Below, piece after piece: positions 40,722 to 62,856 of a stretch of DNA of 64,000 nt. Origin of the DNA: Dactylosporangium siamense (GTDB lineage: Bacteria > Actinomycetota > Actinomycetes > Mycobacteriales > Micromonosporaceae); contig NZ_BONQ01000125.1 of assembly GCF_016862795.1 (NCBI RefSeq), forward strand, positions 62,001 to 126,000, read 5' to 3'. Each line of letters begins with the position of its first letter. Position 1 is the stretch's first letter. The notes below the pieces were generated by a model. The model worked only from the letters and a program-made list of their open reading frames with translations, was not told where the DNA came from and did no database searches. The translations under genes and the position numbers were made by a program.

Positions 40722-40856
40722 GGTCAACCGCGCCACCCGGTGGCTGCAACCGTTTTGCTCCCGGCCGGATGGATCAGATGTCGGCATGTCGGGCCGATGG
40801 CACGATCGGCGCTTCGGCTGGCGGAGCCGCCCGACGGTGCGACAGGAGGACTCCTG

Positions 40857-42818
40857 GTGCTGCGACCATCCCGGCTGCTGCGCACCGGTGCCGTGCTCGG
40901 ACTCGCCACCATTCTGCTCGGCCTGACCGGCGTCAGCGTGGCGGGCTCGACCCGGACCCGGGCCTCGGCGAACGCCGCCGTCGCCGCGACCGCGCTGGCC
41001 GAGGCGTACGAGCTGGCCGACGACGCGGTGGCCCTCGAGGTGATCGCCGAGCAGCGGTACCGGCTGGCGGCCGGCGACGCGGCCCGCGAGACGGCCCGCG
41101 AACTGCACCGTGGCGCGGCCGGTGCGCTCGAGGTGGCGCTGCACGACGTCGAGCTGCGCGGCGCCCCCGCCGACCGGGACCTCGCGGCCAGGGTGCGCAC
41201 GCTGCACGAGTCCTACCTGAACTCCAAGGACCGGCTGTTCAACGCCGTCGACCGTGGGGACCAGGCAGCCGCGGCCCGCATCGACGAGACCGAGGTCGAC
41301 CCGGCCGCGGAGGAGATCGGCGGCCTGGTCCACAGCGCCTCGGCGGCCACCGCGGCCGAGGCGGCCGACGCGATGCGCGACCTGCACCGCGTCGAGGGCA
41401 TCGTCTTCACCGCCACGGCCTCGACGTTCGCCGTCGGGCTCGCGTTGCTGGTCGCGTTCGCCGTGATCGCGGGTGGCTACCAGCGCCGGCTGCTGCGGCA
41501 GGCGGCCGAGCACGAGTACCACGCCTCGCACGACGCGCTGACCGGCCTGCCGAACCGCACGCTGTTCACCGAACGCACCGCGGAGGCCCTGCTTGCCGCC
41601 GAGCCGGACGGCCGTGGCCTCGCGGTGCTGCTCCTGGACCTGGACCGGTTCAAGGAGGTGAACGACACCCTCGGTCACCAGTACGGCGACGAGCTGTTGC
41701 GGCAGGTCGCCGCCCGGACCACCGCGGCGCTGCGGGGCGGCGACATGGTCGCGCGGCTGGCCGGGGACGAGTTCGCGGTGCTGCTGCCCGGCGCTTCCGC
41801 CGCCGACGCCGCCGGCCTGGCCGCGCGGTTGCAGGGCGAGCTGCACCGCAGCTTCGCGCTCGACGACGTGGCGGTCGACGTCGAGGTGAGCATCGGCATC
41901 GCGGTCGCGCCGGAGCACGCCGCGGACACCGACGCGCTGCTGCGCTGCGCCGACATCGCCATGTACACGGCGAAGGACAGCAAGACCGGCGCGACGCTGT
42001 ACCGGCCGACCATGCACACCGAGGACGGCAACCGGCTCCTGCTGCTCGGCGACCTGCGCCGCGCCCTGGACGTCACGGACCAGCTCACCCTGCACTACCA
42101 GCCGAAGATCAGGCTCGACGACGGCCGGCCGTCCGGTGCCGAGGCGCTCGTGCGCTGGGCGCACCCGACGCGCGGGCCGATCCCACCGGCGGAGTTCATC
42201 CCGGTCGCGGAGACCACCGGCCTCATCACCCGGCTCACCCTGTACGTGCTGCGCCTCGCCGTCACGCAGGCCCGGACCTGGCTCGACGACGGGCTCGTCG
42301 TGCCGATCGCGGTCAACCTGTCGCCGCGCTGCCTGCTGGACCCCGAGCTGGTCGGCCACGTGACGCGGCTGCTGGAGGAGCACGATCTGCCCGCCGACCT
42401 GCTGCGCCTGGAGGTGACCGAGACGGCGGTCATGGCGAACCCGGCCCTCGCCACCGAGACGCTGGTCGCGCTGCACCGCCTGGGTGTGCGGCTGTCGATC
42501 GACGACTACGGCACCGGGTACTCGTCGATGGCGTACCTCAAGAGCCTGCCCGTCGACGAGCTGAAGGTCGACCGCACGTTCGTCATGCACATGGACGCCG
42601 ACCCGGAGGACGCGGTCCTGGTCCGCGGCGCGATCGAGCTCGGCCACAACCTCGGCATGTCGGTCGTCGCCGAGGGCGTGGAGGGCGCCGCGCACGTCGC
42701 CGCGCTGCAGGAGCTCGGCTGTGACGTTGCGCAGGGCTACCACTACGCCCGGCCGATGCCCCCGGCGGACCTGACCGCGTGGCTGCGGACCAGCGCCGCC
42801 ACGGCGCTGGTCCGCTAG
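40857..42818 (+). CDS. membrane GGDEF-EAL cyclic di-GMP protein
   Basis: A 653-residue signalling protein. Two membrane helices (about 8-30 and 180-203) enclose an extracytoplasmic helical sensor region. The GGDEF domain has LDLDRFKEVNDTLGH and the signature LAGDEF (302-306; first G replaced by A). An intact I-site, Arg293-x-x-Asp296, lies upstream. The EAL domain keeps Glu429 (GAEALVRWAHP), 'VNLSPRCLL', 'EVTETAVM' and 'IDDYGTGYSSM', so phosphodiesterase activity is expected. Cyclic di-GMP synthesis is possible with AGDEF. GTG 40857 is supported by AGGAGGA; ATG 40797 is rejected. The sensor signal is unknown. In Streptomyces cyclic di-GMP controls development. Confidence 0.92.
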   Translation: MLRPSRLLRTGAVLGLATILLGLTGVSVAGSTRTRASANAAVAATALAEAYELADDAVALEVIAEQRYRLAAGDAARETARELHRGAAGALEVALHDVELRGAPADRDLAARVRTLHESYLNSKDRLFNAVDRGDQAAAARIDETEVDPAAEEIGGLVHSASAATAAEAADAMRDLHRVEGIVFTATASTFAVGLALLVAFAVIAGGYQRRLLRQAAEHEYHASHDALTGLPNRTLFTERTAEALLAAEPDGRGLAVLLLDLDRFKEVNDTLGHQYGDELLRQVAARTTAALRGGDMVARLAGDEFAVLLPGASAADAAGLAARLQGELHRSFALDDVAVDVEVSIGIAVAPEHAADTDALLRCADIAMYTAKDSKTGATLYRPTMHTEDGNRLLLLGDLRRALDVTDQLTLHYQPKIRLDDGRPSGAEALVRWAHPTRGPIPPAEFIPVAETTGLITRLTLYVLRLAVTQARTWLDDGLVVPIAVNLSPRCLLDPELVGHVTRLLEEHDLPADLLRLEVTETAVMANPALATETLVALHRLGVRLSIDDYGTGYSSMAYLKSLPVDELKVDRTFVMHMDADPEDAVLVRGAIELGHNLGMSVVAEGVEGAAHVAALQELGCDVAQGYHYARPMPPADLTAWLRTSAATALVR

Positions 42819-53356: not shown

Positions 53357-53383
53357 CTCAGACGCGCGCGGTGCCGCGCCGAT
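53357..53383 (+). promoter_or_regulatory. FliA/sigma-28-like promoter for the MCP gene
   Basis: CTCA (53357-53360), 17 nt, then GCCGAT (53378-53383) matches the -35/-10 pattern of FliA-type sigma factors. It stands 40 bp before the MCP ATG, and a GAGGAGG ribosome site lies in between. Confidence 0.6.
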
Positions 53384-53423
53384 GATCAGGGAGCATGCTC
53401 CAACTCCCGAGGAGGCCCAGGAC

Positions 53424-55142
53424 ATGGCCGACGCAACCGGTGAACGACGCCGCTCCGGATTCCGGGACCTGTCCGTCGCCTGGAAACTGGGCAGCCTGGC
53501 CGGCGTGGTGTCCGTGCTGCTGCTCGCGATCGGGGTGTTCGGGCTGGTCCAGCTCGGCAACGCGCAGGAACGGCTCGATCTGCTGTACAACAAGAATCTG
53601 CGAACCGTGCAGATGGTGAACGATGTCGGCGGCGACTACAAGGACCTCCGGTTCTACATCCGCGAGCTGGCGCTGGCCCAGACGGCCGCGGAGAAGGACG
53701 CCGCCGAGCAGAAGCTGAACACGGCCGTCGACGGGCTGGACGAGAGCTGGCAGACGTTCACCGCGCGGGACGCGCAGAACGGCAAGGCCGACCGGGACGC
53801 GTTCAGCACCGCGTGGAAGTCCTACCAGACGCTGCTCGCCCAGCAGCTGGTCCCGCTCGCGAGGGCGAACAAGTACGACGAGTTCAACTCGGTGGCCAGG
53901 GGCCAGGGCGCGGCGATGGCCGGCGCCATCGACACCGCCCTCACCAACCTGGTCGAGCAGGAGAACACGGCGGCCGAGGCCACGCTCGCCGAGTCGAAGT
54001 CCACCTACGACTCCTCCCGGATCCTCTCCATCGGGCTGATCGCGGTGGCGCTGGTGCTCGCGTTCACGGTGGTGCAGATGATCAGTCGGTCGATCTCCAA
54101 GCCGCTCAACGAAACCGTCGCGGTGCTGTCCGCGATGGCCGAGGGCCGCCTGGACAAGCGGGTCACCGTGGCGAGCCGGGACGAGGTCGGCCGGATGGGC
54201 GCCGCACTCAACAGCGCGCTCGACCGGCTGGCCGAGACGGTGAGCACGGTCGTGGACTCCGCCACCCAGCTCAGCAACGCCTCCAGCCAGATCAGCGGCG
54301 CCTCGCAGAGCCTGTCGCAGGCCGCCACCGAGCAGGCCGCCAGCGTGCAGGAGACCACCGCCAGCATCGAGCAGATGACCGCCGGCATAGCCCAGAACAG
54401 CGAGAACGCCCGCACCACGGAGGGCATCGCGACGGGCGCCGCGACCGAGGCCCACGACGGCGGCGGCGCGGTCCAGAAGACCCTCGACGCGATGAAGCAG
54501 ATCACCAGCAAGATCGGCATCATCGACGACATCGCCTTCCAGACGAACATGCTGGCGCTGAACGCGACGATCGAGGCCGCCCGGGCCGGCGAGCACGGCA
54601 AGGGCTTCGCCGTGGTGGCCACCGAGGTCGGTAAGCTCGCCGAACGCAGCCAGATCGCCGCGCAGGAGATCAGCGAGCTGGCGGCCGGCAGCGTGACGAC
54701 CGCCGAACACGCCGGCACGCTCCTCGACAAGATCATTCCGAGCATCACCAGGACGTCGGACCTGGTCCAGGAGATCGCGGCGGCCAGCGGGGAGCAGTCC
54801 ACCGGCGTCCACCAGATCAACATCGCCATGACCCAGATCGGCAAGGTCACGCAGCAGACGGCGTCGTCCAGCGAGGAGCTGGCCGCGACCGCCGAGGAGA
54901 TGGCGGCGCAGACCCACCAGCTGCAGAACATGATGTCGTTCTTCACCACCGGCGCCACGGGCGGTCGCCGCCCCGCCGGGAACAGCCGCCCGCAGCGCGA
55001 GGTGTCCCAGTCCAAGGGCCAGTCGAAGGGCCTGAACTACAACACCGCCCAGTACAGCGGCAACGGCAGCAGCACGTACTCCCCGCGCGCCGCCGAGATG
55101 ACCGTCCCGGACATCGACGAGAGCAAGTTCGACCGCTTCTGA
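53424..55142 (+). CDS. methyl-accepting chemotaxis protein, full-length transmembrane receptor
   Basis: A 572-residue receptor. Two membrane helices (about 20-42 and 198-217) flank an extracytoplasmic four-helix-bundle ligand domain (4HB_MCP-like, '[20 protein letters not shown]'). A HAMP domain (about 218-270) leads to a signalling coiled coil with the conserved tip '[20 protein letters not shown]'. The C-terminal tail is long and ends KFDRF. It senses an unknown extracellular compound and controls CheA through CheW. GAGGAGG precedes ATG 53424. It lies on the opposite strand to the che operon but probably shares FliA-type control. No CheR-docking NWETF-type tail is present. Confidence 0.95.
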
Positions 55143-55350
55143 CCCGGCGTTCCGGGAGCCTGTGAAGCTTTGTACTCGCCGCCGGTGGAACGGGGCAGGA
55201 GACCGTGAATCACCTCTGCTGCTCCGTGTCTATCCAGCACGACACTTTGTCTTGATGAGCAGGTGTTCCCTCACGGCCCGCATCCCCTGACCCTGTCGCC
55301 TTGCGGCCCACGGCTAGCATCGGGCGCGTCTCGTCGATGGAGGTGCGCCA

Positions 55351-55812
55351 ATGTCCAGAGCCCCGATCGGTCAGTACCCCCACATCCGACTATCCCACTA
55401 TCTCGGCGCGAACCAGTCGATCGGCTCCGTGACCCACCACTACACCCTCACGCCGATCAGCATCCCCCGGCCCACCGAGGGCGAGGCGACCGGCGAGATC
55501 GTCTGCGCCGAGTGCGGCGGCGTGGAGTACTACCGAGTGCTCAACGAACGGTCCACGCTGGCCTGGCGCCGGCTGTGGCTGGTCCTGATGCTGGTCAGCT
55601 TCGCGATCATGGGTCTGAGCATCGCGTACATAGCGGTCAATGGCGACCAGCCGATCGACGGCGACGAAACCTTGATCAACCTGGTGCTCGTGGGGCTGTT
55701 CGGCGGTTTCATCGTCGGCCTGATCCTGTGGAACTTCTGGTGGTATGAGGACGGCGTGCGCGGACCGGGCCGGTTCTTCCGCCGCCCACACGGCCTCAAA
55801 CTCCCAAAATGA
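55351..55812 (+). CDS. hypothetical two-helix membrane protein with CxxC motif
   Basis: A 153-residue protein that I do not recognise. A hydrophilic N-terminus of about 70 residues contains CAEC (residues about 51-54), perhaps half of a zinc ribbon or a redox pair. Two membrane helices follow (about 72-97, LWLVLMLVSFAIMGLSIAYI, and 110-130, LINLVLVGLFGGFIVGLILW). A basic C-terminus (GRFFRRPHGLKLPK) is cytoplasmic. GGAGG precedes the ATG. It sits between the receptor gene and the end of the che operon, so a motility role is possible but only by position. Its lower GC usage near the 3' end is mild. Confidence 0.65.
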   Translation: MSRAPIGQYPHIRLSHYLGANQSIGSVTHHYTLTPISIPRPTEGEATGEIVCAECGGVEYYRVLNERSTLAWRRLWLVLMLVSFAIMGLSIAYIAVNGDQPIDGDETLINLVLVGLFGGFIVGLILWNFWWYEDGVRGPGRFFRRPHGLKLPK

Positions 55813-56055
55813 CCTCGCCGGCTCAGGACCCGCATTCGCCTCGCGGACGGCAAGCCGGGGGCCGGAGCTGGGCCGGGCCATGGCTCCCCGAGGAATACCG
55901 CCAACCGCTCATGTGGCATAAGAACCAGATGTCGTAACGAAAGGATCATTGCCACAAAATAGATCGCCTGCATTCCTCAGAAGCCCCACCGGTTCGGTCT
56001 GCGTCTCGCATGAACGGCGGGCGGGATCAGGAATACGGGGCGGGCGGGGTGCGGG

Positions 56056-58179
56056 TCAGACGAGGACCTGTTCGCGGCTGACGTTCTCGGCGACCAGCGG
56101 GCCGACGTCCAGGATCAGGGCCACCTCGCCGTTGCCGAGGATGGTCGAGCCGCTGATGCAACGGGCCTCGCTGAACAGGACGCCGAGCGGTTTGATGACC
56201 GTCTGGAACTGGCCGAGCAGGGTGTCCACGACCAGGCCCGCGCGCTGCCCGGACTGCTCGATGACGACCACGTTCTGCCGGCGCGGCGGCGTGCCCGCGA
56301 TGTCGAAGATCGTGCGGAGGCGGATGAAGGGCAGGACCTCGCCGCGCAGATACATGCAGTCGCGCTCCGCGGCGTTCGGGGGTAGCTCCACGCACTCGGT
56401 GACCCGGTCGAGGGGGACGATGAACGCCGAGGGCCCGACGCCGACGAGGAAGCCGTCGATGATGGCGAGGGTCAGCGGCAGCCGGATCCGGAACGTGGTG
56501 CCCGCGCCCGCCGTCGTCAGCACCTCGATGGTGCCGCGCAGCTCGGCGATGTTGCGGCGGACCACGTCCATGCCGACGCCGCGGCCGGAGAGGTTGGAGA
56601 CCGTCTCGACCGTGGAGAAGCCCGGCTCGAAGATCAGGTCGTACACCTCGTGGTCGCTCATGACGGTGCCGGGCTGGACCATGCCGCGCTCGACGGCCTT
56701 GCCGAGGATGCGGTCGCGGTTGAGGCCGCGGCCGTCGTCGGCGACCTCGATGACGATGGAACCGGCGTCGTGGAAGGCGTTGAGCCGCAGCTTGCCCCGG
56801 ATGGGCTTGCCCTGCCGCTCGCGGTCGGCGCGGGGTTCGACGCCGTGGTCCAGCGCGTTGCGGACCAGGTGGAGCAGCGGGTCGCCGATCCGCTCGACGA
56901 GGGCCTTGTCCATCTCCGCCTCGCCGCCGGTGATGACCAGGTCGACGTCCTTGTCGAGGTCGACGCAGACGTCGCGGACCACCCGTTCGAACCGGCGCAG
57001 GGTCGTGCCGATCGGCACCATGCGCAGCGACAGGGCGCTGTGGCGCACCTCCTCGACGAGGCGCATGACCTCGCCCTGTGCCTCGTCGTAGCCCTCCTCG
57101 TCCGGGCGGTGGATGCCCACGCTGGACTGGGCGATGACCAGCTCGCCGACGAGGTCGATGAGCTTGTCGAGGCGGTTGGCGTACACCCGGATCGTCTGCG
57201 TCTCCTGCGAGCGGCTGTCGGCGGTCTTGCGCTGCTTGCCCAGCGCCGCGTCGACGACGGGCTTCGGCACCGTCTGGGTCTCGATCAGGATCTCGCCGAG
57301 CGGCGGCAGGGAGTCGCCGGTGCGGTTGCGTTCCTGCTGGATCTGCAGTGCCCGGGCGATCTCGAGGTCGGTGACCGCGCCGCTGCGGACGAGCAGGTCG
57401 CCGAGCCGGTCCTGGTCGGGCAGCCCCTCGATCACCTTGACGTAGTCGTCGGCCTGGCCGTCGGCGGGCACGATGCTGATCTGGCTGTCCTCGCGCACGA
57501 AGTCGAAGACGTCCTCGATGTCGGCCTTCGCGGCGCCGCTGACGAAGTCGATCACGAAGCCGAGGTAGCAGGTCTCCGGATCCATCTGCTCGGCGTCGGG
57601 CAGCGCGTCGGTGAGGGTCGTGACCCGTTCCAGCACGCCCATGGTGGCCAGGTACCGCAGGAACGACAGCGGGTCCATGCCGTTGCGCAGGCTGTCCGGG
57701 CCGAACCGCAGGGTCAGCCGCCATGTGCGCAGCGTGTCGACCTCCGGCTCGGCAAGCACCGGCGCGAGCGGGGAGGACAGCGTCAGGAAGGGCTGGAGCG
57801 CGGCGAGCAGCCGGTCGCCGTCGACGGTCTCGCTGGTCGTCGCGTCGAGGCGGCCGGCGGCGACCCCCTCGACCATGGACGAGACGTGGTCACCGCACGG
57901 CAGCAGCGCGCTGACCAGCTCGGCCGAGACGGCCAGCTCACCCTCGCGGACCGAGTCCAGCACCGTCTCGACCACGTGCGTGAACGCCACCAGGTGGTGC
58001 AGGCCGAACAGCCCGGCCGAGCCCTTGAGGGTGTGCATGGTGCGGAACAGGGCGTTGACCGAGTCCTGGGCGCTCGGCTCGTCCTCCAGGCCGAGCAGCC
58101 CCTCCTCGAAGTCCTGCAGCAGCTCCCGGGCCTCGGTGATGAACGTGTCGAGCGCGTCGGCGAGATCGTCGTCGGTCAC
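56056..58179 (-). CDS. cheA: chemotaxis histidine kinase CheA
   Basis: A 707-residue cytoplasmic kinase. The Hpt (P1) domain carries His49 in LFRTMHTLKGSAGLFG. A P2-like region and the dimerisation helices (ANRLDKLIDLVGELVIAQS) follow. The HATPase has 'LLHLVRNALDHGVEPRADR' and 'SGRGVGMDVVRRNI', and the last about 140 residues are a CheW-like regulatory domain ('IDGFLVGVGPSAFIVPLD'). It autophosphorylates on receptor signals and phosphorylates CheY and CheB. It is the last gene of the operon, overlapping the STAS gene by 4 bp. It has no receiver domain, and no CheZ is present. Confidence 0.97.
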   Translation of the reverse strand: MTDDDLADALDTFITEARELLQDFEEGLLGLEDEPSAQDSVNALFRTMHTLKGSAGLFGLHHLVAFTHVVETVLDSVREGELAVSAELVSALLPCGDHVSSMVEGVAAGRLDATTSETVDGDRLLAALQPFLTLSSPLAPVLAEPEVDTLRTWRLTLRFGPDSLRNGMDPLSFLRYLATMGVLERVTTLTDALPDAEQMDPETCYLGFVIDFVSGAAKADIEDVFDFVREDSQISIVPADGQADDYVKVIEGLPDQDRLGDLLVRSGAVTDLEIARALQIQQERNRTGDSLPPLGEILIETQTVPKPVVDAALGKQRKTADSRSQETQTIRVYANRLDKLIDLVGELVIAQSSVGIHRPDEEGYDEAQGEVMRLVEEVRHSALSLRMVPIGTTLRRFERVVRDVCVDLDKDVDLVITGGEAEMDKALVERIGDPLLHLVRNALDHGVEPRADRERQGKPIRGKLRLNAFHDAGSIVIEVADDGRGLNRDRILGKAVERGMVQPGTVMSDHEVYDLIFEPGFSTVETVSNLSGRGVGMDVVRRNIAELRGTIEVLTTAGAGTTFRIRLPLTLAIIDGFLVGVGPSAFIVPLDRVTECVELPPNAAERDCMYLRGEVLPFIRLRTIFDIAGTPPRRQNVVVIEQSGQRAGLVVDTLLGQFQTVIKPLGVLFSEARCISGSTILGNGEVALILDVGPLVAENVSREQVLV

Positions 58180-58448
58180 CGCGGTGCTCCGTCCAGGTCG
58201 AGATGGGCCATGACGAAGACGTCGTGGACGGCCCGGCTCGGGTTGTGGAAGGTCAGCGTGATGCCCCGCTGCGCCGCCTCGCGCCGGGCGACCAGCAGGA
58301 GCTGCAGGCCGGCGGTGTCCAGCTCGGTCACGCCCGAGAGATCCACGTCAGCGGCCGTGCCCCGCTCCAGGAACGCCCGCAGCCGCGCCTGCTGCTCGGC
58401 GGCCACGGCGACGGTGAGCTCGCCGTCGATGATCAGCGCGTCCTTCAC
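58176..58448 (-). CDS. STAS-domain protein in the chemotaxis operon
   Basis: A 90-residue single STAS domain, like anti-sigma factor antagonists: 'VAAEQQARLRAFLERGTAAD', 'VDLSGVTELDTAGLQLLLVA' and 'RREAAQRGITLTFHNPSRAV'. The loop has LDTAGL, where antagonists carry a phosphorylatable Ser/Thr; here Thr is available. It overlaps cheY by 4 bp and cheA by 4 bp, so it is made in step with the kinase. In other bacteria, STAS proteins beside che genes link chemotaxis arrays to partner switching. No SpoIIE phosphatase or RsbW kinase is adjacent. The role here is unknown. Confidence 0.9.
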   Translation of the reverse strand: MKDALIIDGELTVAVAAEQQARLRAFLERGTAADVDLSGVTELDTAGLQLLLVARREAAQRGITLTFHNPSRAVHDVFVMAHLDLDGAPR

Positions 58449-58813
58449 GGCATGATGAGTTTCGACACCGCGGCGAGCATCTGCGCCGGCTGGAACGGCT
58501 TGGTCACCCAGGCCTTGGCGCCCGCCGCCTGCGCCTGCCGCTTCTTGTCCTCCTGCGACTCGGTCGTGAGCATGATGATGGGCGTGAACTTGTACGACGG
58601 CAGCTTCTTGACCTCACCGACGAGCGTGATCCCGTCCATGTTCGGCATGTTCACGTCCGAGATGATCAGGTGGATCCGTTTGCCGTCGAGCTGCTTCAGC
58701 GCGTCCTGGCCGTCGGCGGCGGTCACCACCTCGTAGCCCGCGCCGCGCAGCGCGATGGAGACGACCTGCCGTACCGACGCCGAATCGTCGACGATCAAAA
58801 TGGTCTTCGACAT
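58445..58813 (-). CDS. cheY: chemotaxis response regulator CheY
   Basis: A 122-residue single receiver domain. The acid pocket (Asp9, Asp10), phospho-acceptor Asp53 (IISDVNMPNMDG), the switch Thr83 or Thr84 (IIMLTTES) and Lys105 (VTKPF) are all present. Phosphorylated CheY binds the flagellar motor switch to alter rotation. It starts with ATG 58813, 11 bp after the short MCP gene. The stop overlaps the STAS gene by 4 bp. Its direct neighbour downstream (STAS) and the absence of CheZ or CheC leave the dephosphorylation route open. Confidence 0.96.
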   Translation of the reverse strand: MSKTILIVDDSASVRQVVSIALRGAGYEVVTAADGQDALKQLDGKRIHLIISDVNMPNMDGITLVGEVKKLPSYKFTPIIMLTTESQEDKKRQAQAAGAKAWVTKPFQPAQMLAAVSKLIMP

Positions 58814-58824
58814 GAGTGCCCCTC

Positions 58825-59838
58825 CTAGAAGAACGTGATCTCTGATTCGGGAACGGCGGCCGCGGTCCTGGCGCCGGTGTGGTGCGCCTCCCGCTCCTGG
58901 TGCATCGTGTACGTGGCCTCGAGCTCGGCCAACAGGCTCCGCGCGTCGAGGTTTCCGGACGACGCGACGGCGGGCATCCGGCCGATGTTGTCCCGCAGGT
59001 GCTCCAGGACCTGGCCGATCCGGTCCTGGAACTGCAGGTTGACGATGGCCTCGGAGACTCCGGAGCGGATCCCGACGGCGGCCCGCTCCAGGCGGTCCGA
59101 GGACTCCCGGAGCCCCGCGAACACGGCGCCGAGGTCGTCGAGGACCTCGGTCACCTCGCTGTTGGCCCGGGCGACCGCGGCGCCCTCCCGCTCCGTGTCG
59201 CCCTCCGCCTTGGCGAGGGCGCCGGCGATCGCGCCGGCGATGCCCTCGACCCGGCCGGCCATCTTCTCGCTGGTCTGGAACGACCGCTCGGCCAGCTGCC
59301 GCACCTCGAGGGCCACGATGCCGAAGCCGGCACCGGCCTCGCCGGCCCGGGCCGCCTCGATCGAGGCGTTGAGCGCGAGGAGGTTGGTCTGCGCCGCGAT
59401 CTGGGCGACCTCCGAGGTCATCTGCTTGAGGTCGTCGTTGAGCCCCAGCAGCGTCTCCAGGTCCCGCAGCGCCTCGCGCTTGGAGCTCAGGGCGTCGTCG
59501 AGGGTGCCCACGACGTTGCCCAGCCGCTGCCGGCCCCGGTCGAACGAACCGCCGCCCTGGCTGTCCTCCAGCACCGCGCTGGAGGAGGTGAGCACGGCGT
59601 CGAGGTTGTCGACGATCTGGCTGAACTCGGTGGTCACCGCGGCGACGGCGGTCTCCATCTGCACCCGCGACGACTCGATCTGGCTGGACCAGACCGGCGC
59701 GACCGCGGCGGCGAACTCGGTGATGCCGCGCTCGTGGTCGGCCGGACCGGTGTCCTCGCTCACGGGCCGGCGGTGTCGCCTGACACCCAATAGGTAGCCG
59801 GCGGCGAGGGCGACGGCAGCGATCAGGAACTCAACCAT
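58825..59838 (-). CDS. short methyl-accepting chemotaxis protein, single N-terminal helix
   Basis: A 337-residue receptor without a periplasmic domain. A single N-terminal helix ([16 protein letters not shown]) anchors a cytoplasmic coiled coil. The hairpin tip '[20 protein letters not shown]' and '[16 protein letters not shown]' are typical of MCP signalling domains. It ends ESEITFF, a short hydrophobic pentapeptide-like tail. It may detect an internal signal, energy state or pH. The start overlaps the cheB stop by 8 bp. It sits inside the che operon, so it is probably a core component of the array rather than a facultative receptor. Confidence 0.9.
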
Positions 59839-60892
59839 GGGTACGGATCACCTCAGCGATGGCGGTCAACGGCACTTCGCGGTCCACGGCGCCGAGCCGG
59901 ACCGCCTCCTTGGGCATCCCGTGCACGACGCAGGTCGCCTCGTCCTGCGCGACGGTGAGCGCCCCGGCGGTGCGCATCTCCAGCAGGCCGCGGGCGCCGT
60001 CGTCGCCCATCCCGGTCATGATGACGCCGAGCGCGCGGCGCCCCGCGACCCGCGCGACCGAGCGGAACAGCACGTCGACGGAGGGCCGGTGCCGGTTGAC
60101 CGGCGGCCCGTCGCTCACCTTGACCCGGAACCGGGCGCCATCGGTCAGCAGCTGCATGTGCCGGCCGCCGGGCGCGACGAGGGCCAGCCCGGCCTGGACG
60201 GCATCGCCGTCGGCGGCCTCCCGGACCTCGATCGTGGACAGCATGTCCATGCGCTCGGCGAACGCGGCGGTGAACTTCTCCGGCATGTGCTGGACGATGA
60301 CGATGCCGGGGCTGTTGCGCGGCAGCGCGGTCAGCACCGTTTCGAGGGCCTGGGTGCCGCCGGTGGACGTGCCGATCGCGATGATCCGGTCGGTGCCGGC
60401 GGAGGCGGCCGCCACGGCCACCGGTGCGGGGCGGGCCACCGCCGGGGCCGCCGGCGCCGCCGTCCGGTTCAGCCGGGCGACCTTGCCGGCAGCGGCCGCC
60501 CGCACCGCCGCCACGATGTCGCCGCTGTCGTCCGTCATGAACTGTTTCAGCCCGGTGGTCGGCTTCGGTACGACGCCCGCCGCGCCCGCCGCGAACGCGT
60601 CCATGGTGGCCCGGGCGCCGCGCTGGCTCAGCGTCGAGCAGATGACCACGGGCGTCGGCCGGGTCGCCATGATCTTCTTCAGGAACGTGATGCCGTCCAT
60701 CCGGGGCATCTCGATGTCCAGGATGACGACGTCGGGCCAGGTCTTGTTCATCAGCGCCATGGCGAAGATCGGGTCCGAGGCGGAGCCGAGCACCTCGATG
60801 CCGGGGCTCTCGGCGAGCCGCCGTCCCAGGACCTGCCGCACGACCGCCGAGTCGTCGACGATGACGACCTTGATGCCCGCCCCGGTGGTCAT
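59831..60892 (-). CDS. cheB: protein-glutamate methylesterase/glutaminase CheB
   Basis: A 353-residue adaptation enzyme. The N-terminal receiver has Asp59 ([13 protein letters not shown]). A linker rich in alanine and proline leads to the methylesterase domain with Ser176 ([13 protein letters not shown]), His202 (VQHMPEKF) and Asp298 (MTGMGDDGA). It removes methyl groups from receptors and may deamidate glutamines. ATG 60892 overlaps the cheD stop as ATGA, so a longer open frame starting at 61273 is rejected. CheA probably phosphorylates it. Confidence 0.97.
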
Positions 60893-61377
60893 GCCGTCTG
60901 CCGCTCTTGGTGCTGCACCCAGACGTCGCCGGTGTTCAGGTCGAAGACCAGCTGCCGCGATCCCGTCCCGCCCAGGTGTTGCGCGGTGAGCTGGAACCCG
61001 TGCCGGTGCAGCAGCCGGGTGCCGATCGCGATGTTGTCCTGTGGCACCTGCGGCGCCGGGCCGGGGGAGCGGCCGGGGAACTGGTCGCCGCCGCCGAACA
61101 TCTTCGCCTGGTACTCCGCCGGCCGGGTGCCGGTCCGGTCCAGCTCGTGCAGGAACAGCTGGACGGCCTCGTCGGCGTAGCGGCCGCTGAGGGCCGGCAG
61201 GTCCGCGGTCGGCGCGGTGCGGTGCGCCAGCAGGTAGTGGCACATCCCGCCGACCCGCAGCCGCGGGTGCCACAGGGTGATCGCGACGCAGGAGCCCAGC
61301 ATGGTCCGGATCCGGGTGCCGGCGCCCGTGAAGTGGAAGTCGCCCGGGTTGAGGAACACGTCGGAGGGGCTAGCCAA
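60889..61377 (-). CDS. cheD: chemoreceptor glutamine deamidase CheD
   Basis: A 162-residue enzyme. The catalytic Cys30 ([13 protein letters not shown]) and His47 ([10 protein letters not shown]) are in place, with 'FGGGDQF' and '[16 protein letters not shown]' typical of CheD. It deamidates receptor glutamines and, where CheC exists, is inhibited by it; no CheC gene is visible here. The start is TTG 61377 with GGAG upstream, and the overlap with cheR is 8 bp (TTGGCTAG). It is one of a chain of translationally coupled genes. Confidence 0.95.
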
Positions 61378-62206
61378 GATCGGCTCCGGGGAGCTGGTAG
61401 ATCGACGGCTGCACCTGCCGCAGCCGCGACGGGATCCCGTTGAGCGTCTCGGACAGGCTCACGATGAAGTAGCCGCCGGGGTGCAGCATGTCCTGCAGCC
61501 GCCCGACCACCTCCGCCTTCGTGGCGGTCTCGAAGTAGATCATCACGTTGCGGAGCATGATCACGTCGAACCGGCCGAGCCGGCTCTGGTCCTCGAGCAG
61601 GTTCGCGCCCAGGAACGTCGTCCTCGCCCGCAGCGCCCGGTCGATCGCCATCAGGCCCTCGTATTCGGCCCGGCCCTTGCGGCAGTACCGGCGCAGCAGC
61701 GGCGTCGGGATCTTCTCCGCCGCCGAGATCGGGTACAGGCCGGCCTCGGCCCCGGCCACCACCCGCGAGGAGATGTCGGTGCCGACGACCTCCCACGGCG
61801 CGTTCGGCAGCGCGTCGGCGAGCACCATCGCGGCGCTGTACGCCTCCTCGCCGCTGGAGCTCGCCGCGCTCCAGAGCCGAAACGGCCGGCTCGCCCGATG
61901 TGCCGGGGCGATGACCTGGCCGAGGAACTCGAAATGCCGGGGCTCGCGGAAGAAGAACGTCTCGTTGGTGGTGAGCAGGTCGATCGCCTGGCGGGTCTCG
62001 GCCGGATGCTGCGGCGAGCGGAGCACCTGCAGGTATTCCGTGTAGCTGCGCAGCCCGAGCTTGCGCAGCCGCTTGTCCAGCCGCCCCTGCACCAGGGTCT
62101 CCTTGCCCGGCGCCAGCCGGATGCCGGTGCGCTGGTGCAGGAACTGGCTGATGGCCTGGAACTCGGTCGTCGTGATCTCCGTGGGCCCGACCAGTGACGG
62201 CGTCAT
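61370..62206 (-). CDS. cheR: chemotaxis protein methyltransferase CheR
   Basis: A 278-residue S-adenosylmethionine-dependent methyltransferase that methylates receptor glutamates. The N-terminal helical domain ('FQAISQFLHQRTGIRLAPG') is followed by the SAM-binding domain: 'LLTTNETFFFREPRHFEFLG', 'RLWSAASSSGEEAYSAAM' and 'FDVIMLRNVMIYFE'. 'EVVGTDISSRVV' is the acidic loop. The ATG overlaps the cheW stop by 4 bp (ATGA). Length and motifs match CheR rather than the TPR-extended relatives. Confidence 0.96.
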   Translation of the reverse strand: MTPSLVGPTEITTTEFQAISQFLHQRTGIRLAPGKETLVQGRLDKRLRKLGLRSYTEYLQVLRSPQHPAETRQAIDLLTTNETFFFREPRHFEFLGQVIAPAHRASRPFRLWSAASSSGEEAYSAAMVLADALPNAPWEVVGTDISSRVVAGAEAGLYPISAAEKIPTPLLRRYCRKGRAEYEGLMAIDRALRARTTFLGANLLEDQSRLGRFDVIMLRNVMIYFETATKAEVVGRLQDMLHPGGYFIVSLSETLNGIPSRLRQVQPSIYQLPGADLG

Positions 62207-62760
62207 GAGTCTTCCGGGATCGCCGTCGCCAGATCGGCCATGTCGCTCAGCGACAGGACGTGGTCGATGTCGAGCACGATGATGAAGTCGTTGTCCCGCT
62301 TCGCCATCCCGCTGATGAAGTCGGCCCTGATGCCGGCGCCGAAGGACGGGGCCGGCTCGATGTCCTCCGCCGTGAAGGTCTCGACCTTGCTGACCGCGTC
62401 GACCAGGATGCCGATGTCCTGGCCGTTGCCGCGGGCATCCGCCGCGGCCGCGTCGCCGGACCCGGGCATGCCACGGATGTGCACGATGATGATGCTGGTG
62501 CGCCGGGCGATGCTGGTGGCGCCCTTGGCGAAGCGGATCGCCAGGTCGATGACCGGGACCGCCCGGCCGCGCAGGTTGATGACGCCACGGACGAAGTCGG
62601 GCGTCATGGGCACGACGGTGAGGTTGCGGTACTCCAGGATCTCGGTGATGTGGAAGATGTCCAGCGCGTAGGACTCGCCGTTCAACGTGAACGTCAGATA
62701 CCGCGTCGCGTCGTCGGCGGTGCCCTCACCGCGTCCCCGGGCCGCTGCCTCAACGCTCAC
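62203..62760 (-). CDS. cheW: chemotaxis coupling protein CheW
   Basis: A 185-residue scaffold protein that links receptors to CheA. The CheW domain spans about residues 20-180: 'RYLTFTLNGESYALDIFHIT', 'LEYRNLTVVPMTPDFVRGVI', 'NLRGRAVPVIDLAIRFAKGA' and 'IGILVDAVSKVETFTAEDIE'. GTG 62760 has the strong ribosome site GGGGAGATCC, so an in-frame ATG at 62817 is rejected because it lies within the promoter. It heads the operon cheW-cheR-cheD-cheB-mcp-cheY-STAS-cheA. Confidence 0.95.
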   Translation of the reverse strand: MSVEAAARGRGEGTADDATRYLTFTLNGESYALDIFHITEILEYRNLTVVPMTPDFVRGVINLRGRAVPVIDLAIRFAKGATSIARRTSIIIVHIRGMPGSGDAAAADARGNGQDIGILVDAVSKVETFTAEDIEPAPSFGAGIRADFISGMAKRDNDFIIVLDIDHVLSLSDMADLATAIPEDS

Positions 62761-62815
62761 TGGATCTCCCCTTCCGGGCAACCGCGCGCCCACGGGCACG
62801 CCTGTCAGGAGACCC

Positions 62816-62840
62816 ATCGGCGGCGCGGCGGCGCCCTGAA
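62816..62840 (-). promoter_or_regulatory. FliA/sigma-28-like promoter for the cheW operon
   Basis: On the - strand TTCA (62840-62837) is followed by exactly 15 nt and GCCGAT (62821-62816). It stands about 55 bp before the GTG of cheW and is the only such sequence seen on this strand in the gap, so it is a good candidate for the operon promoter. Confidence 0.65.
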
Positions 62841-62856
62841 GGAGAACGTCGGACAG

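Follow-up and report, generated by a model that had tools for sequence, protein, structure and literature searches.

When are the chemosensory genes of an actinomycete switched on, and by what kind of RNA polymerase sigma factor? The question is raised by a stretch of 64,000 nt (the window) in the 12.7-Mb genome of Dactylosporangium siamense (contig 125, C125:62001-126000), which carries on its forward strand a gene for a membrane chemoreceptor of the methyl-accepting chemotaxis protein (MCP) type, here called mcp, and on its reverse strand an operon of chemotaxis (che) genes beginning with cheW. In the original prediction each was said to be preceded, near its start, by a sequence of the type recognised by FliA/WhiG sigma factors, so that chemotaxis would be switched on with flagella. 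From the comparisons described below it seems very probable that the two sites are genuine promoters of this type (the sigma-28 family), which would co-express the chemosensory proteins with flagella.

The two sites and the flagellin element

Both sequences are present as first described: CTCA-N17-GCCGAT (N17 standing for any 17 nt) lies ahead of mcp, whose ATG (53424) follows the hexamer after 40 nt, and TTCA-N15-GCCGAT (62840-62816, reverse strand) lies ahead of the che operon, beginning 80 nt before the cheW GTG (62760), which is preceded by a GGAAGGGGAG stretch. The -10 element at each is GCCGAT, as in the FliA/WhiG form GCCGAT(AA), the final AA being missing from both. The cheW site can be read in a second register, as CTTC-N16, and this scores 15.8 bits in the flagellin matrix introduced below, as against 10.1 bits for TTCA-N15 with a 2.5-bit spacer penalty (about 12.6 bits without it); CTTC-N16 is also found in the flagellin promoters of four other genomes (G044, G062, G063 and G064). 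The 2-nt difference in spacing that had been pointed out is thus real as first read (N17 and N15), but is in part an effect of register, since with cheW in its higher-scoring form only 1 nt is left. Both spacers fall within the 15-17 nt of FliA/WhiG promoters (best 16). As aligned here, the cheW spacer is canonical, and only the mcp site of the window is off by one base from its orthologues (N16). The -35 words, CTCA for mcp and CTTC for cheW, are among those of the flagellins of the lineage (CTCA, CTTA, CTTC, CTTT and CTAA).

As counts of the bare words in the window were close to chance (see below), the sites were compared instead with the flagellar promoters of the lineage. Twenty-four flagellin genes from 10 genomes share a single element, CT(C/T)(A/C)-like, 16 nt, GCCGAT-like, which, read in the CT register, stands 79-91 nt ahead of the start; in G006 and G047 it ends in GCCGAA. 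A search for CTCA-N15-17-GCCGA ahead of flagellar genes had been proposed as a check, and the four flagellin genes of D. siamense itself do carry the element, all with N16 and 79-88 nt ahead of the start. (The fourth of these, C77:138374-138781 in G000, seen in L027 and L182, lies outside the flagellar cluster with its own CTCA-N16-GCCGAT; it sits in an open frame of 641 aa, its paralogues having 294-303 aa.) A matrix was trained on 21 of these promoters, from 10 Micromonosporaceae genomes, with neither che site among them. The other three (L101, L102 and L103) were omitted, having been set by the script at TTCA-N15, although they too are readable as CTTC-N16. From a set of 34 Flagellin_N matches 20 were taken, those that were weak, partial or FlgL-like being left aside, as was the FlgL-like one of the five in D. 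siamense. Penalties of 0, -2.5, -5 and -7.5 bits were tried for N15 and N17.

Under all four penalties the mcp and cheW sites outscored every other one of the about 127,900 positions in the window: mcp ranked first of 127,920 in the main scan (first or second over the four penalties), and cheW ranked second in the main scan. Ranks 1 and 2 were kept when the flagellins of D. siamense itself were removed from the matrix. When only the core was scored (4 + 6 positions), mcp ranked 1, 2, 6 and 16 over the four penalties and cheW 3, 3, 2 and 2. Among 200 matrices with shuffled columns none placed both sites in the top three, and two placed either one there. The same test gave rank 1 for mcp and 2 for cheW among 36,878 positions in D. 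fulvum (L035), and ranks 1 and 3 among 36,890 in Virgisporangium ochraceum (L036).

Conservation, sigma factors and the wider set of sites

A cheW of the type in the window was found in five of seven genomes of the same genus (which includes G062), two of three of the Virgisporangium genus and all five of a further genus, g7, and mcp has orthologues in six of the nine other genomes searched (L035 and L067 come from one and the same genome, as do L036 and L040; each genome is counted once). Flagellin-family matches do not in turn imply these two genes: G061 and G065, of the same genus, gave such matches, as did G024 from the Virgisporangium genus, and window-type cheW and mcp were not found in any of the three. 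In the first two genera the cheW site is present in all seven genomes that bear the gene (D. siamense, G062, G044, G063, G064, G055 and G069), invariably as GCCGAT at N16 from CTTC, CTAC or CTTG; the scores range from 11.7 to 18.7. Pairwise identity among these seven upstream regions is 100% in the -10 element and 86% in the -35 element, falling to 46% in the spacer and to 38% and 31% in the upstream and downstream flanks. The mcp site is present in six of the seven gene-bearing genomes, as CTCA-N17-GCCGAT in D. siamense, CTCA-N16-TCCGAT in G044, G062 and G063, CTCA-N16-CCCGAT in G064 and TTCA-N16-GCCGAT in G055.

Which sigma factors might read such sites? Three genes of the genome exceed the curated cut-off of the FliA/WhiG family TIGR02479. 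Two of them adjoin genes for three flagellins, FliD, FlgK, an FlgL-like protein, FliW and another MCP, the gene for the last having its own CTCA-N16-GCCGATA; the third is on contig 151. For all three proteins the closest solved chains are 6pfv and 6pfj, titled just 'RNA polymerase sigma factor', which we take to be WhiG, followed by chains named FliA (9wsf, 9wsm, 1rp3 and 6pmi), and the WhiG-named chain 7lq4 also matches. With three such sigma genes, the same element at the flagellins and its conservation ahead of cheW and mcp orthologues, recognition by a FliA/WhiG-type sigma factor, as originally proposed, is well in keeping with the data.

The genome contains 146 CTCA-N15-17-GCCGAT sites and 96 of the TTCA version. 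Among the first 100 of the 146, which were analysed in detail, spacers of 16, 17 and 15 nt occur 65, 23 and 12 times. Twenty-four of the 100 are promoter-placed, being non-coding by our rule based on third-position GC (GC3) and followed at 8-180 nt by a gene (the proteins encoded there were truncated at about 800 nt), and these divide as 21, two and one. N16 is also the commonest spacer in the remaining sites (44 of 76; Fisher P 0.006 for the comparison with 21 of 24), which points to a background component in the bias. Genome counts of the reversed patterns (33 against 146 for CTCA, 12 against 96 for TTCA) were set aside because reversal alters dinucleotides; in their stead we relied on the bias in spacing among promoter-placed sites. 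Nine of the 24 promoter-placed genes encode two flagellins, two MCPs, two proteins with an MCP-type four-helix sensor, a GGDEF protein, an EAL protein and a T2SSE-family ATPase (PilT-like, in our own reading); of the others, five have receiver, GAF, PAS, CHASE or CHASE3 domains, four belong to unrelated families and six have no match. Nine more genes stand behind N16 or N17 sites that were called coding: a flagellin, a HAMP protein, a LuxR-type response regulator, a FIST protein and five that are unrelated or unmatched.

Close to the che cluster, besides the third-ranked window site (40773), two sites lie on the same contig outside the window. One, CTCA-N16-GCCGAT at C125:52640 (L033 10640, forward strand), is ahead of an MCP gene 9.4 kb outside it. 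The other, CTTC-N16-GCCGATAA at C125:130473-130446 (L034 5473-5446, reverse strand), about 4.4 kb past its end, comes directly before a PAS-GGDEF gene; in the listed open reading frame the GTG is only a few bases past the -10 element, and translation probably starts further downstream.

In a sample of 61 genomes of the family, CheW matches occur in 15, all of them within the 16 that have a Flagellin_N match above the cut-off, a family that also picks up FlgL; CheW of the window type (E < 1e-30) is present in five of the 61, each with a Flagellin_N match. The idea that chemotaxis is switched on with flagella draws support from this restriction of CheW to genomes with flagellin-family matches, from the element shared with the flagellins and from the two sigma genes beside them. 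In the mechanism that we propose, polymerase carrying one of the three FliA-family sigma factors would read CT(C/T)(A/C)-N16-GCCGAT at the flagellins and at these che genes, the mcp site would drive the membrane chemoreceptor gene and the cheW site the operon from cheW to cheA, and production of the chemosensory proteins would fall in the developmental phase in which the flagella are made. Transcription from both sites, its dependence on such a sigma factor and its timing in motile spores are steps that we infer.

The che locus and other readings of the sites

The features of the locus are collected in Table 1. The gaps along the operon cheW-cheR-cheB-MCP-cheY-STAS-cheA (62760-56056, reverse strand) are -4, 96, -8, 11, -4 and -4 nt. 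The STAS gene between cheY and cheA is an unexpected companion in a che operon.

Table 1. Putative promoter sites and genes of the window (positions in the window)
Feature	Coordinates	Strand	Evidence	Remarks
Predicted FliA-type promoter, mcp	53357..53383	+	Sequence, flagellin matrix, orthologues	CTCA 53357-53360, N17, GCCGAT 53378-53383
Predicted FliA-type promoter, cheW operon	62816..62841	-	Sequence, flagellin matrix, orthologues	CTTC 62841-62838, N16, GCCGAT 62821-62816
Third-ranked FliA-type site	40773..40798	+	Flagellin matrix, sequence	ATCA-N16-GCCGAT, 15.2 bits
GGDEF-EAL protein	40857..42818	+	Pfam	Cyclic di-GMP (c-di-GMP) turnover; downstream of the 40773 site
mcp	53424..55142	+	Pfam 4HB_MCP_1, HAMP, MCPsignal (scan of longer open frame)	Membrane chemoreceptor, 572 aa
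cheW	62203..62760	-	Pfam CheW	GTG start; first gene of operon
cheR	61370..62206	-	Pfam CheR	4-nt overlap with cheW
cheB	59831..61273	-	Pfam CheB_methylest, Response_reg	96 nt past cheR, going by listed starts
MCP-signal protein	58825..59838	-	Pfam MCPsignal	337 aa; no sensor domain by Pfam
cheY-like receiver	58445..58813	-	Pfam Response_reg	
STAS-domain protein	58176..58448	-	Pfam STAS_2	
cheA	56056..58179	-	Pfam	Hpt, dimerisation, ATPase and single CheW domain

Several observations weigh against taking the sites as FliA-type promoters. CTCA-N14-18-GCCGA occurs eight times in the window against 5.8 expected (23 of 100 shuffles reach eight) and TTCA-N14-18-GCCGA three times against 1.9 (27 of 100 reach three); the cheW score of 15.8 is slightly below the weakest training site (16.3) and slightly above the next window site (15.2); mcp drops to rank 16 when the core alone is scored under the heaviest penalty, and its N17 spacer is rare among promoter-placed sites (two of 24). 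In G069 the region upstream of mcp has no FliA-type site and the cheW site scores just 11.7. In all five genomes of genus g7 (L038, L039, L070, L071 and L072) mcp and cheW diverge from one short common intergenic region, in which a convincing FliA-type motif was looked for and not found, the cheW upstream regions scoring 15.7, 12.5, 8.0, 3.3 and 1.2 and those of mcp 6.8 or less. The highest of these, in L071, equals accepted sites by score alone; we discount it because its -10 element is GGCGAC, and because all five share the scoring CTCATAT unchanged while no -10 element is conserved with it. Might both sites, then, be chance matches of short words in GC-rich DNA? The near-expected word counts, and a third-ranked site just 0.6 bits under cheW, would fit such an origin, but an independent matrix ranks the two sites first and second, shuffled matrices fail to do so, the orthologues keep them, and the third-ranked site itself stands ahead of a GGDEF-EAL gene; we reject chance, as a very remote prospect, on the matrix ranks, the shuffled-matrix control and the conservation. 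Hardly more credible is that a housekeeping sigma factor serves mcp and cheW, with the FliA-type motif a relic. In g7 the mcp upstream region does have a plausible principal-sigma-type element by eye, TTGTC..TA(C/G)GCT (the invariant words of the region being CTCATAT, TGATC and, towards mcp, TAGG), and there a promoter of this type may possibly take the place of a clear FliA-type element. In the window, however, a TTGACA/TATAAT-type site was found in neither upstream region by a scan that is ill suited to GC-rich actinobacteria, and the motif has been kept while the surrounding sequence drifted.

Two further readings accept the promoters and differ over what they imply. The sigma factor that reads the sites may be a paralogue of WhiG-like or sporangium type, such as the third one, on contig 151, chemotaxis then following spore development rather than flagellar assembly; we consider this a serious contender that falls somewhat short of an even chance, and a sub-case of the FliA/WhiG explanation rather than its opposite. 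The genome has three sigma factors of the family, with solved chains named WhiG and FliA among their matches; flagellar promoter specificity is shared by WhiG, according to PMC8325347, and PMC13293333 and PMC11064477 describe three FliA-family sigma factors as involved in the development of Actinoplanes missouriensis. Against it, the element is shared by the flagellins, which two of the three sigma genes adjoin; this leads to co-expression either way, the two versions being inseparable by sequence. It is also conceivable, though unlikely, that the promoters are FliA-type while the che cluster acts not on the flagellar motor but on type IV pili or c-di-GMP signalling. PMC10746217 gives F5 as the chemosensory class of most flagellated species in the non-FlgFG actinobacterial classes; its CheA carries an additional CheW domain, and its gene order is A-W...B-R. 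The same paper reports F9 for three zoospore-forming species. Pfam finds one CheW domain, and no additional one, in the CheA of the window, and the gene order is W-R-B-MCP-Y-STAS-A, not that of F5; as the genome also has a distant second CheW-domain stretch, of 27% identity, the che genes of the window may represent an additional chemosensory system. The same motif stands ahead of the T2SSE-family ATPase and GGDEF/EAL genes, and WhiG-like sigma factors direct pili genes as well as flagella genes in Actinoplanes zoospores (PMC8325347). A membrane MCP and a full CheR/CheB/CheY set are nevertheless consistent with chemotaxis, and the five genomes with window-type CheW all have a flagellin-family match.

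A FliA/WhiG-type origin of the sites would have consequences beyond the window. It supplies a model of chemotaxis promoters for flagellated Micromonosporaceae other than Actinoplanes; it puts c-di-GMP enzymes, and what is probably a second chemosensory system, into the predicted regulon of the flagellins; and it reveals that the promoter region of this chemosensory system differs between genera. Motility, chemotaxis and c-di-GMP genes probably form one regulon. We suggest, more tentatively, that one sigma-28-type element may define, in this genus, a spore-motility regulon of flagellins, chemoreceptors, a second, non-F5 che operon, a pilus-type ATPase and several c-di-GMP enzymes, and that the che system may have moved in or out of it between genera by promoter replacement, since Dactylosporangium and Virgisporangium types have the element and g7 has another promoter region.

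Comparison with known systems

In the same family, the flagellar promoters of A. missouriensis reportedly have the consensus CTCA-N15-17-GCCGAA (Jang et al. 2016). They resemble the sites described here in the -35 word, the range of spacing and the GCCGA core, whereas here the ending is mostly GCCGAT and the sites precede a che cluster on a contig other than that of the late flagellar genes. That the flagellar sigma factor (sigma-28/FliA/SigD) controls chemotaxis genes is established in enterobacteria and Bacillus, and the sites have in common with the promoters of those organisms a GCCGAT -10 core, similar spacing and the placing of che genes under a flagellar sigma factor, but differ in the -35 element, CT(C/T)(A/C) here and TAAA there. 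In the part of the accessible literature that was surveyed we found no published case of che genes controlled by FliA in this group, and the present case is a new and well-supported example of the established principle. The flagellar consensus is given as TAAA / GCCGATAA in PMC8325347. The WhiG promoters of Rubrobacter described in that paper offer a close likeness, one class of sigma factor there too having flagellar-type sites ahead of genes for pili and c-di-GMP enzymes, with the difference that in D. siamense flagellins and chemotaxis genes are included.

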